A stretch of 25,284 bases of DNA from a virus, in the IMG/VR virus record IMGVR_UViG_3300029309_000321, positions 1 through 25,284 of that record, one strand, 5' to 3'. The notes beneath the pieces are model-generated. The model saw only the letters and a program-made list of their open reading frames with translations, had not been told where the DNA came from and did no database searches. Shown here in pieces: positions 20,567-24,858 of the stretch. The translations under genes and the position numbers were made by a program. The first letter of the stretch is position 1; each line of letters opens with the position of its first letter.

Positions 20567-20595
20567 TTGATATGTGGTATGACTTTTTACGTCAA
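20567..20595 (-). promoter_or_regulatory. Possible sigma-70-type leftward promoter for the terminase/virion operon
   Basis: On the minus strand TTGACG (20595-20590), a 17-bp spacer and TATCAA (20572-20567) give a fair -35/-10 pair. The -35 overlaps the stop region of the DUF6362-like gene. Transcripts would start near 20560 and pass through the inverted repeats at 20479-20525, which would then lie in the leader or act as a downstream operator. Confidence 0.35.
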
Positions 20596-21023
20596 GAGAA
20601 GTACTTTCCCAATATTTCATCTTCTTGAGCTTTAATCTTGTACCAGCACCTAATCAGCGCGTCGGTGTATCTGCGCTTGATCTGTCTTCCATCTCTTAAG
20701 CCCCGCATTCGTGCAAGTTTTTGCCACTTTGGGCCACGTTCTCTAAATGCTGCGCTGTGCGCGACGGCCCAGACGATCTGTCGATCATCTTTGTTCATCA
20801 TTTCTATTCCAAGAAAAAGAGCACGTTCGTAACCATCAACTTGTTTTGGAGTTGCTTTGGGAAGTCCTGGCTTGTATTCGGAGTAGCCATACGCGGTCCA
20901 CTCTTGCGGATAATTTGGCCATGCGGACATCTTTTGCTTTCGAAACGCGGGTGGTAATTTTCGCTCGGTTTCAGCTGCTTCGAAAAAAATGTCTGAGAGC
21001 TGCGCTACATCAGGGTTATCCAC
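20592..21023 (-). CDS. DUF6362-like putative DNA-binding protein, 143 aa
   Basis: Unknown function. The sequence follows the pattern I know as DUF6362: an N-terminal helix FFEAAETERKLPPAF (13-27), SAWPNYPQEWTAYGYSEYKP (33-52) with the signature SAWP and AYGY, then ERALFLGIEM, DDRQIVWAVAHSAAF and a C-terminal basic helix region WQKLARMRGLRDGRQIKRRY, probably a sigma-like helix-turn-helix. The only usable start is GTG at 21023, which lies inside a perfect DnaA box; a stop codon is 9 nt upstream in frame and no clear SD is seen. It sits between the origin-like region and the terminase operon, where late regulators often lie. Confidence 0.7.
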   Translation of the reverse strand: MDNPDVAQLSDIFFEAAETERKLPPAFRKQKMSAWPNYPQEWTAYGYSEYKPGLPKATPKQVDGYERALFLGIEMMNKDDRQIVWAVAHSAAFRERGPKWQKLARMRGLRDGRQIKRRYTDALIRCWYKIKAQEDEILGKYFS

Positions 21024-21024
21024 A
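21016..21024 (+). promoter_or_regulatory. DnaA box (perfect TTATCCACA), right of the DUF6362-like start
   Basis: An exact match to the bacterial DnaA-box consensus. It overlaps the GTG start codon of the DUF6362-like gene, so DnaA binding might also affect that gene. A second identical box lies exactly 200 bp further on in the same orientation. Confidence 0.7.
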
Positions 21025-21068
21025 ACAAAATCTCACAAAAAAAAAATTATTCATATGTATCATATGAG

Positions 21069-21110
21069 AGCTGATATGTGTGCGCTCCTTGGCGGCGCAC
21101 CCAATCAGCT
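21069..21110 (+). other. Nested stem-loop inside the origin-like region
   Basis: AGCTGAT (21069-21075) pairs with ATCAGCT (21104-21110), and inside it GTGCGC (21080-21085) pairs with GCGCAC (21095-21100). On the plus strand it is followed by TTGTTTTTG, so it could also end rightward transcription. In this setting a structural role in the origin is equally possible. Confidence 0.5.
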
Positions 21111-21215
21111 TTGTTTTTGTACATATATGAGCACAAATCTGAGCGCATATATGATACATGTCAGAGCGCTTCGCGATTTTAAAAACACCACAAAGAATCA
21201 GTCAATACCCTTTTT

Positions 21216-21224
21216 TTATCCACA
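21216..21224 (+). promoter_or_regulatory. DnaA box (perfect TTATCCACA), next to the phased repeats
   Basis: Exact consensus match. It sits next to the 10-bp phased repeats and exactly 200 bp from the other box, in the same orientation. Confidence 0.7.
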
Positions 21225-21225
21225 A

Positions 21226-21270
21226 TCCGTTAATGTCCGTTGGTGGTCGTTTATGGTCGTTTGTGTCCGC
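21226..21270. repeat. Five short repeats with exact 10-bp phasing (iteron-like)
   Basis: On the plus strand TCCGT, TCCGT, GTCGT, GTCGT and TCCGC end at 21230, 21240, 21250, 21260 and 21270. Every unit therefore faces the same side of the helix. The array begins two bases after a DnaA box and overlaps the last codons of the 64-aa gene. Helically phased short repeats at an origin suggest binding sites for an initiator or bending protein. Confidence 0.55.
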
Positions 21271-21445
21271 ATTTTTTTTTGCGGTGCTCTTTGTAGATCG
21301 TCTTTTTGCTTAGAGATGTTTGAAATCTACGCATCAAAAAATTTACTTCTTCGAACAGCTCTTGATGCTTGTTCGTGTTCCAATGCTCTCGATACTCGCG
21401 CAACGCCAGGATAACCACTTGTGTTTCTTCTGTCGTTAAATTCAT
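21251..21445 (-). CDS. Small hypothetical protein, 64 aa
   Basis: Unrecognised. The N-terminal half (TTEETQVVILALREYREHWN) looks like an amphipathic helix. The C-terminus is very basic (KKTIYKEHRKKKCGHKRP) and may bind nucleic acid. It has a strong SD, AAGGAG, 7 nt before its ATG, and an ATGA overlap with the GcrA-like gene, so it is well supported as expressed. The last codons run over the phased repeats of the origin-like region and over a run of nine A in the coding strand. Confidence 0.65.
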   Translation of the reverse strand: MNLTTEETQVVILALREYREHWNTNKHQELFEEVNFLMRRFQTSLSKKTIYKEHRKKKCGHKRP

Positions 21446-21750
21446 TCTTCTCTCCTTAAATCTTCTTCCAAAGAATCCAAGCTCATATTCATTTTGTTTA
21501 AAATTTTTTCTAAATTATTTTCGGAGGGATGTTCGACAAGACGTATTTCATATTTAGATAAAAGAGTTTCATTTACACTAGGGTTTTTTGGTAGCTTTTT
21601 TCTATGCGTAGAAACATCTAACAATTTTGATATAATTTGCTCTCGGGACACATACGACGCCGGACCTAGCTTTTCTGCTATCTCGCTGGCACTGTAACCC
21701 TCACCCCAAAGCCGCATCATTTTGCTCACATTCATATCAGTCCAAATCAA
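21442..21750 (-). CDS. GcrA-like regulator, 102 aa
   Basis: The N-terminus IWTDMNVSKMMRLWGEGYSASEIAEKLG (1-29; shown by the WTD start, the LW-x-E/G-G-x-SASEIAEKLG helices and then SREQIISKLL) follows the DNA-binding domain of GcrA. In alphaproteobacteria GcrA is a cell-cycle regulator that binds sigma-70 RNA polymerase at CcrM-methylated (GANTC) promoters. The C-terminal half differs from chromosomal GcrA and ends in an acidic helix (SLEEDLRREE). The start is TTG at 21750: it keeps the WTD motif and has GGGAG 8 nt upstream inside the end of the 107-aa gene, while the next ATG (21735) would delete the motif. Probably a phage regulator exploiting host sigma-70 promoters. Confidence 0.72.
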   Translation of the reverse strand: MIWTDMNVSKMMRLWGEGYSASEIAEKLGPASYVSREQIISKLLDVSTHRKKLPKNPSVNETLLSKYEIRLVEHPSENNLEKILNKMNMSLDSLEEDLRREE

Positions 21751-21753
21751 ATG

Positions 21754-22077
21754 CTACACTCCCAGTGGATTACAGAACTCACAAGCATGCTTCTCGCCAA
21801 CAGGCTCATAGGCTTGGTACTCACCCGCCACCCGCACCATGCGCTCAACCTCTATCCAGCCCTCGCCCTCGCAGTGCTCACAGCTCTGTGATATTTTTAG
21901 TTCTATATCTCTTACCTTGCGGTGTAGATTTAGCACTTGACTTGCCATGCCAGAATTAATCGGACCCGAAAACAACGCGCGCGCTTCACCTGGCACATGA
22001 ATACTAAACCAAGCACCGTCCCTACGATCCCAGGTCAGTTGAAACTCTACGTGCTCGATCTCAACGCTAGTCTTCAT
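21754..22077 (-). CDS. Small protein with C-terminal CxxC pair, 107 aa
   Basis: Function unknown. The N-terminal ~70 residues are beta-rich (VEFQLTWDRRDGAWFSIHVPG). A helix SQVLNLHRKVRDIELKISQS leads to CEHCEGEGW (~66-74) and CEFCNPLG (98-105), two CxxC pairs that could bind one zinc, of the DnaJ or rubredoxin-knuckle kind. It overlaps the 58-aa gene by 11 nt, and that gene has the same pair of motifs, so the two may share origin or bind each other. The SD for the GcrA-like gene lies within its last codons. Confidence 0.6.
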   Translation of the reverse strand: MKTSVEIEHVEFQLTWDRRDGAWFSIHVPGEARALFSGPINSGMASQVLNLHRKVRDIELKISQSCEHCEGEGWIEVERMVRVAGEYQAYEPVGEKHACEFCNPLGV

Positions 22078-23870: not shown

Positions 23871-23883
23871 CTTGGGGGTTATT

Positions 23884-24858
23884 ATGTTACACACGACGCC
23901 GGATTGGGCGGCGCGCCATAAATATTTTCATCATTCCAACCCGAGATCTGGTGATCGCGCGAAAAAATTATTTGAAAAAACACACGTTCGTCCATCTATT
24001 GACTGGGCTCGATACGTGCTCAAAGACGAAACTCGAGAAGCGGATCACGAAAAAGCTGCGGATATTTTAAAAAGATTGTCTGTTGGTCGCGGGTCCGCCG
24101 CTATGGAAGCAGGGCGCGCAACACAAGATGCCTGTAATTTACATCTCATTCCTGACAAAGATTTTGGACAAACGCTTTCGCTCGTAGAGGCAACACAAGT
24201 CGCCATAGATCGACTTCAAAACTACGAGCCAAGAGATTGGTCTCCGAGCGTCTCAGAAGACGATACGGCGAAGAAACTGCACTACATCGAGGAAATACCC
24301 AAAGTCATAGAACACTCAATCTTGGGGCTGAGAGAGGCCATGCGTCACGATAACAGGATTGTTGGAGAGATCGATCTCCTTGACAGATTGCCTGGGAACG
24401 CCCTGCCTCACAATACATTGCCGGACTATGGCAGGCGTGGAGACCTGAAAACTAAATGGTCTAAACCGCATCACAGTGCGAAGGATCCGCTAACAAAAAA
24501 ATGGTATAAAGGATCGTTGCCTAGCTCATTGAGCGGTATGTTTGACATGAACAACGTCTATCAAGTCGCTGGGTTTTATGCATTAAATGGCAGACAGCCA
24601 CCCTTTTTGGTTTATGCCAACGCATACGACTATCGGGTTTTTGATGGGAACAACACTCCAGAACTGTCTCCACTTTTCTTAGAAGATGTAGTGAGGGATA
24701 TCTCCTTTCAGCACAAAATTACCGAAAACATTTTGAGACAATCAAAAGATAAACACGATCTTTTTAATTTGGTAAGCCCCGATTTCCGAGCAATCCAATG
24801 GAATGAACCGCCAGGTTACGTGGAGGAGGCAAAAAGAATGTGGGGGTTTGCAAACTGA
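23884..24858 (+). CDS. PD-(D/E)XK exonuclease, phage recombination type, 324 aa
   Basis: Predicted 5'-3' exonuclease that would expose single strands for the annealing protein next to it. Core motifs in order: GRGSAAMEAGRATQDACN (68-85), the entry helix; GEIDLLD (161-167) with the metal-binding Asp; GDLKTKW (186-192) as the (D/E)xK; QVAGFYAL (227-234) as the Gln/Tyr helix. Length fits RecB/lambda-exo-like phage nucleases. A TTG at 23872 in frame is possible, but the ATG at 23884 has GGGGG about 6 nt upstream and is preferred. It overlaps the next gene by one base (TGATG), a typical coupling of exonuclease and annealing protein. Confidence 0.82.
   Translation: MLHTTPDWAARHKYFHHSNPRSGDRAKKLFEKTHVRPSIDWARYVLKDETREADHEKAADILKRLSVGRGSAAMEAGRATQDACNLHLIPDKDFGQTLSLVEATQVAIDRLQNYEPRDWSPSVSEDDTAKKLHYIEEIPKVIEHSILGLREAMRHDNRIVGEIDLLDRLPGNALPHNTLPDYGRRGDLKTKWSKPHHSAKDPLTKKWYKGSLPSSLSGMFDMNNVYQVAGFYALNGRQPPFLVYANAYDYRVFDGNNTPELSPLFLEDVVRDISFQHKITENILRQSKDKHDLFNLVSPDFRAIQWNEPPGYVEEAKRMWGFAN

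Follow-up and report, generated by a model that had tools for sequence, protein, structure and literature searches.

A conserved pair of DnaA boxes flanking a sigma70-like promoter and a rapidly changing repeat array in temperate phages with an HTVC010P-type backbone: a candidate host-DnaA-dependent replication origin

RESULTS

A promoter and a repeat array lie between two DnaA boxes

The window, by which we mean the whole stretch of DNA analysed, is an entire IMG/VR contig of 25,284 bp with a GC content of 47%. The following features were found at the locus described here.

20592-21023, minus strand: DUF6362 gene, predicted Q21-like late antiterminator or regulator (Pfam E 8e-10), directly upstream of terS
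21016-21024, plus strand: DnaA box 1, TTATCCACA, present in 11 of 11 representatives and absent from the search pattern
21053-21160, no strand: imperfect dyad/tandem-repeat array of CATATATGCGCTC units, with outer arms at 21055-21083 and 21131-21159
21070-21109, minus strand: inner hairpin formed by GCTGATTGGGTGCGC...GCGCACACATATCAGC; relatives show compensatory changes
21176-21205, minus strand: putative sigma70-like promoter TTGACT-18 bp-TAAAAT(CG), directed towards DUF6362, with -35 and -10 invariant in diverged relatives
21181-21176, minus strand: -10 element TAAAAT plus CG
21205-21200, minus strand: -35 element TTGACT
21195-21199, no strand: GANTC (GAATC) between -35 and -10; read on the minus strand as TGATTCT, it matches the GcrA consensus YGAKTCK
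21216-21224, plus strand: DnaA box 2, TTATCCACA, reading TGTGGATAA on the minus strand, which is the transcribed one; it precedes the -35 by 10 bp and is identical in 11 of 11 aligned representatives
21226-21270 (about), no strand: direct repeats of 10 bp beyond box 2, shared only with the nearest relatives
21251-21445, minus strand: small early gene, conserved, which runs into the 10-bp repeats at its 3' end
21442-21750, minus strand: gene for a protein with a GcrA-like N-terminal domain (Pfam GcrA, E 1e-6)

Read along the minus strand, which is the direction of the late genes, the early gene at 21445-21251 is followed by the 10-bp direct repeats, box 2, a gap of 10 bp, the -35, an 18-bp spacer containing GATTC, the -10 plus CG, the dyad/tandem array with its inner hairpin, box 1 together with the DUF6362 start, and then terS and terL. 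A preliminary description of this DNA had pointed to two perfect boxes, and these are indeed present, on the same strand and 200 bp apart from start to start. The 25.3-kb contig has no other perfect TTATNCACA site. First-order shuffling gave an expectation of 0.175 exact sites per shuffled window, and a same-strand pair within 260 bp occurred in 0 of 2000 shuffles, in agreement with the earlier view that such a pair is improbable by chance. One-mismatch boxes number 8 in the window compared to 5.4 expected, which is unexceptional, and they are almost absent between the two boxes. Also as described before, the inter-box DNA is AT-rich (36-41% GC versus 44-49% genome-wide, in the window and its relatives), box 1 and the DUF6362 gene overlap at the GTG start of the latter, and an A-tract, inverted repeats, and a nested hairpin can all be found. 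The sigma70-like promoter, the GANTC within it, and the 10-bp direct repeats had not been noted in the preliminary description. Two other expectations of the preliminary description did not hold. The spacing of exactly 200 bp is not meaningful as such, since relatives vary between 185 and 224 bp, and a GC-skew inflection was not found, the cumulative skew climbing through the site in G007; skew is a weak test here, as it tracks gene direction and a switch is not essential to a phage origin. Literature searches found no description of the box-pair element.

The boxes and the promoter are invariant in related phages

The boxes stood up to a comparison with relatives. In a set found with DUF6362 as query, for which neither box was ascertained, both boxes are present in every viral contig with a DUF6362 protein of 65-87% identity and with available upstream DNA (L004, L007-L015, and G008 behind L016), and in none of the more distant DUF6362 relatives (57% identity or less). 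When 2.9 million viral contigs were scanned for box 2 plus the promoter, 20 stretches came up, all of them the same locus, and all 20 have a second box 185-224 bp away (218 bp in L137) that the pattern did not ask for; in this set ascertainment partly affects box 2 and the promoter, and never box 1. The same pattern gave two matches in 257 Gb of bacterial genomes, in Syntrophaceae and Photorhabdus, which is about the number that a hand estimate predicts by chance, and in both the second box ~200 bp downstream is absent. A box pair in L071 (244 bp) was considered as a further member and rejected, its locus being unrelated. A DUF6362 search of genome_contigs, which might have pointed to a host, gave no match.

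In an alignment of 11 representatives, all positions of the two boxes (9/9 and 9/9), the -35 (5/5), and the extended -10 (8/8) are invariant, compared to 9 of the 178 other inter-box positions. The promoter TTGAC-18-TAAAATCG is the sole invariant part between the boxes, with box 2 at 8-10 bp from the -35 across relatives; the remainder is a fast-changing repeat array, and identity from the -10 to box 1 drops to 29-59% between subgroups. In G007, G008, and L140, box 1 does not coincide with the DUF6362 start; it falls within another gene, named X (codons ..DPVDNL..), at a distance of ~198-199 bp. Since box 1 is kept at the same distance inside a different gene, the comparison points to selection acting on DNA and not on protein.

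Gene X, which is missing from the window, G003, and G019, encodes a small helical protein family upstream of DUF6362 (L015, 9676-9996; homologues in L019, L021, L022, and L029), with no Pfam match above the cut-off and no informative fold match. In L015 and these homologues a local repeat array lies within the 5' coding half of X. In L038, an XRE-type HTH gene is located behind X, at the same place.

The inter-box array folds back on itself in every subgroup, with RNA-fold z scores of -2.0 to -5.0 over 11 variants, the value for L010 covering additional upstream sequence, and z = -3.9 for the leader in the window. The repeat units differ by subgroup (GCTTAGCGCTAAGC, GCTCAGCGCTGAGC, CATATATGCGCTC, and others). 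Within the subgroup of the window, two-sided changes occur at seven predicted pairs; the alignment-wide covariation term is unfavourable. The array is the densest repeat region, or second to low-complexity coding sequence, in G003, G007, G008, and G013, and its 10-mers are essentially local, with scarcely any recurrence elsewhere in the contigs. A dispersed operator of the CI type was rejected for this reason. Distant relatives without the boxes have other short repeats at the corresponding position. These mostly fall within the 5' half of gene X and are reminiscent of the iterons in lambda gene O.

A predicted Q-like gene follows the element

For DUF6362 (PF19889), Pfam gives no function. When its predicted structure was compared to known structures, five entries of the phage 21 Q antiterminator (Q21) ranked first, followed by matches to sigma region 4; the Q21 matches have Z scores of 6.9-7.6, thus below 8, on a helical model. 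Foldseek alone with the same model found nothing significant in PDB. We take the resemblance of the model to Q21 as suggestive only. The element lies between the cro-like side and this Q-like gene, and if DUF6362 is Q-like, it is situated where lambdoid phages have ori, O, and P.

Replication genes were not detected in the window clade

The structure of the phage had been called T7-like; what we found instead is a podovirus backbone of the HTVC010P type joined to a temperate right arm, the major capsid protein of the window being 73% identical to that of pelagiphages. Two near-complete relatives were used for gene content, G007 (34,987 bp, both contig ends lying within one and the same gene and no stretch of it missing) and G019 (33,204 bp). 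They contain an integrase, a CI-like repressor, a resolvase or VRR nuclease, and annealing-protein-like genes. PHROGs and Pfam profile searches detected no initiator, helicase loader, helicase, primase, or polymerase in either genome, and neither an O-like initiator nor a P-like helicase loader, of which a profile search could miss remote ones. There was also no Pfam or PHROG match to a Rep-type initiator; X and several other early proteins are without assignment, and a novel initiator may be among them. Neither G007 nor G019 has a TTATNCACA outside the box pair.

'DnaA' has been reported in all HTVC010P-related genomes (PMC6811365). In HTVC010P (L152, NC_020481), the product annotated as hypothetical at 26998-27531 (-), gp46, is a DnaA domain IV on its own (PF08299, Bac_DnaA_C; E 3e-17). 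This domain was found in 0 of 16 related records of the window clade, in a search that detected the HTVC010P positive control at 1e-18.

A conserved early protein of ~320 aa (23872-24858 in the window, 29347-30234 in HTVC010P) has no database match, and with an invariant E, D, K pattern (..RGDLKTK..) it looks like a PD-(D/E)XK nuclease. Profile searches with this protein and its annealing-protein-like neighbour found no solved relative, and the nuclease and annealing roles are weak assignments made by inspection. In G019 (L154, 13932-15414), a RuvC-like resolvase and a C5 cytosine methylase replace the VRR nuclease of other members. In G007 (20947-22037; L125, 1947-3037), a Vut_1/QueT-like transporter gene adjoins a PHROG 15826 gene in this temperate phage, and the two are possibly a queuosine-related pair.

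GANTC is depleted in the genomes and found in half of the promoters

When 24 composition-matched words were counted in eight genomes (the window, G003, G007, G008, G010, G011, G013, and G019), the CcrM site GANTC proved to be the rarest in every one of them. Overall the depletion is 3-30-fold, with 11 sites observed versus ~98 expected in the window, 16 versus 137 in G007, and 4 versus 129 in G013; it is weakest in G010 (45 versus 120), and a few intergenic sites are retained. Of 12 distinct promoter sequences, 6 have a GANTC in the spacer between -35 and -10, and its offset takes three different values. GcrA activates promoters with methylated GANTC, with YGAKTCK as the consensus (PMC7987155), which is fitted by the window and L009, the other GANTC promoters matching the core only. 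The retention of a depleted word in the promoter, the fit to the GcrA consensus, and the GcrA-like phage protein together suggest a CcrM-positive alphaproteobacterial host.

DISCUSSION

A candidate origin with a built-in promoter

We propose that the element is a host-DnaA-dependent replication origin with a built-in promoter, and we put the probability of this reading at about one half. It is based on perfect boxes at both ends of a fast-changing array, the lack of detectable replication genes, and a position like that of lambda ori. Further support comes from the repeat density of the array and its local 10-mers, and from the kindred phage HTVC010P, which has a stand-alone DnaA domain IV where the window clade is without it. 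The preliminary description had suggested that host DnaA is used directly, in theta-type replication. Direct use is favoured by the conserved boxes, the AT-rich DNA, and the two near-complete genomes with neither replication genes nor another TTATNCACA, whereas the absent skew inflection supports neither an origin here nor a direction or theta mode. Several points weaken the origin reading. There are only two strong boxes, yet the Caulobacter origin has only two G-boxes as well (PMC4980987); distant relatives without boxes also seem to be without replication genes, yet they keep an array; and an invariant promoter with box 2 at 8-10 bp from the -35 fits transcription control equally well.

At such an origin, host DnaA would bind the two strong boxes flanking ~200 bp of AT-rich DNA. 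Host RNA polymerase would use the promoter beside one box, and transcription crossing the array may help to open or prime the DNA, comparable to ori-lambda. DnaA would load host DnaB, after which the host replisome would copy the phage, and concatemers would be completed by the phage recombination genes (a predicted nuclease, annealing protein, and Holliday resolvase). The array is probably bound by a second protein, either the small protein X where this is kept, or another one. Since the same transcript would run into the Q-like DUF6362 gene, replication would be coupled to the late switch.

The conserved promoter can also be explained without an origin, when DnaA at the boxes, possibly by looping, and GcrA/CcrM at GANTC time the expression of DUF6362 and the late genes according to the cell cycle, with the array as operator or leader. 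We consider this the main rival and a serious one, if less likely than not. It would account for the invariant promoter with box 2 just upstream, for a word that is depleted genome-wide yet found in half of the promoter spacers, for the consensus fit in the window and L009, and for the GcrA-like protein of the window phage, and it agrees with the resemblance of the DUF6362 model to Q21 and sigma region 4. Moreover, a GcrA-dependent prophage operon with portal and terminase genes and a GcrA homologue in phage phiCbK have been reported (PMC7987155). However, it leaves unexplained why there is a second box ~200 bp downstream, kept in a start codon or in another gene, and how a phage without detectable replication genes is replicated, and GANTC is missing from half of the promoters. 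The origin and regulatory readings could be true together. This phage would then be an initiator-less temperate phage with an oriC-like element that reads host DnaA by its flanking boxes and CcrM/GcrA by its retained GANTC, and that times both replication and the Q-type late switch by the host cycle, a speculative combination that we think rather unlikely to hold as a whole.

The array sequence shifts between close relatives while the architecture stays, as might be expected from an autoregulatory or immunity operator for X, DUF6362, or another phage regulator, with the boxes bound by a phage protein instead of DnaA, and the HTH gene behind X in L038 would suit such an arrangement. This is improbable in our view, since the boxes never depart from the exact DnaA consensus while the array drifts, and the repressor region has no copies of the array 10-mers, as would be expected of immunity operators. 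The proximity of terS, and a dyad symmetry and repeats that resemble terminase-binding sites, bring to mind a packaging site (cos or pac) with coincidental DnaA boxes. Such a site would have no role for a conserved promoter and an exact DnaA consensus, and one gene and ~250 bp separate the element from terS, making packaging a very improbable function.

The window clade, a family of marine phages, belongs by its capsid to the lineage of the HTVC010P-type pelagiphages, which are highly abundant, and no detectable gene explains how its DNA synthesis starts. If the element is a host-DnaA-dependent origin, it would show with unusual clarity that a tailed phage can directly use the host initiator. 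The GANTC kept in half of the promoter variants would tie phage development to the alphaproteobacterial cell cycle.

Comparison with known systems

The HTVC010P-type pelagiphages have the capsid and a similar gene order in common with the window clade, but they encode a DnaA domain-IV protein, whereas the window clade is temperate and none was detected there. Skadi, a phage of the HTVC010P type, encodes a helicase loader (PMC10504331), which was not detected in the window clade. With Q21, DUF6362 shares the predicted fold and the place upstream of the late genes, although the match is structural only (best Z 7.6, 8% identity).

The iteron origins of plasmids and phage-plasmids (P1 oriR, R6K gamma, pSC101, and RK2) resemble the element in their strong DnaA boxes, AT-rich DNA, repeat array, and nearby promoter, and in P1 oriR the DnaA boxes occur as arrays at both ends. 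Their iterons measure 17-22 bp, whereas the phage element has dyad, fast-changing repeats of 10-14 bp, and a Rep protein was not detected in the window clade. Among phages, dependence on dnaA is known from coliphage 186. Lambda ori, with its O iterons in gene O and transcription from pR/pO, is comparable in its place between the cro side and Q, in the presence of repeats inside a small gene (X in the relatives), and in transcription through the array, but no O/P homologue was found in the present case, and perfect flanking boxes are present instead of weak ones. Caulobacter Cori has two DnaA boxes (G-boxes) and a GANTC/GcrA regulatory setting in common with the element, which differs in its box sequence TTATCCACA and its phage-specific array; the hemE context belongs to Cori, the phage element being without hemE. 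The stimulation of ori-lambda transcription by DnaA (PMC3985674) appears from our analysis to be the nearest phage precedent, and plasmid origins with DnaA boxes, such as that of P1, together with the two-G-box Caulobacter origin (PMC4980987), indicate that such an architecture can work.
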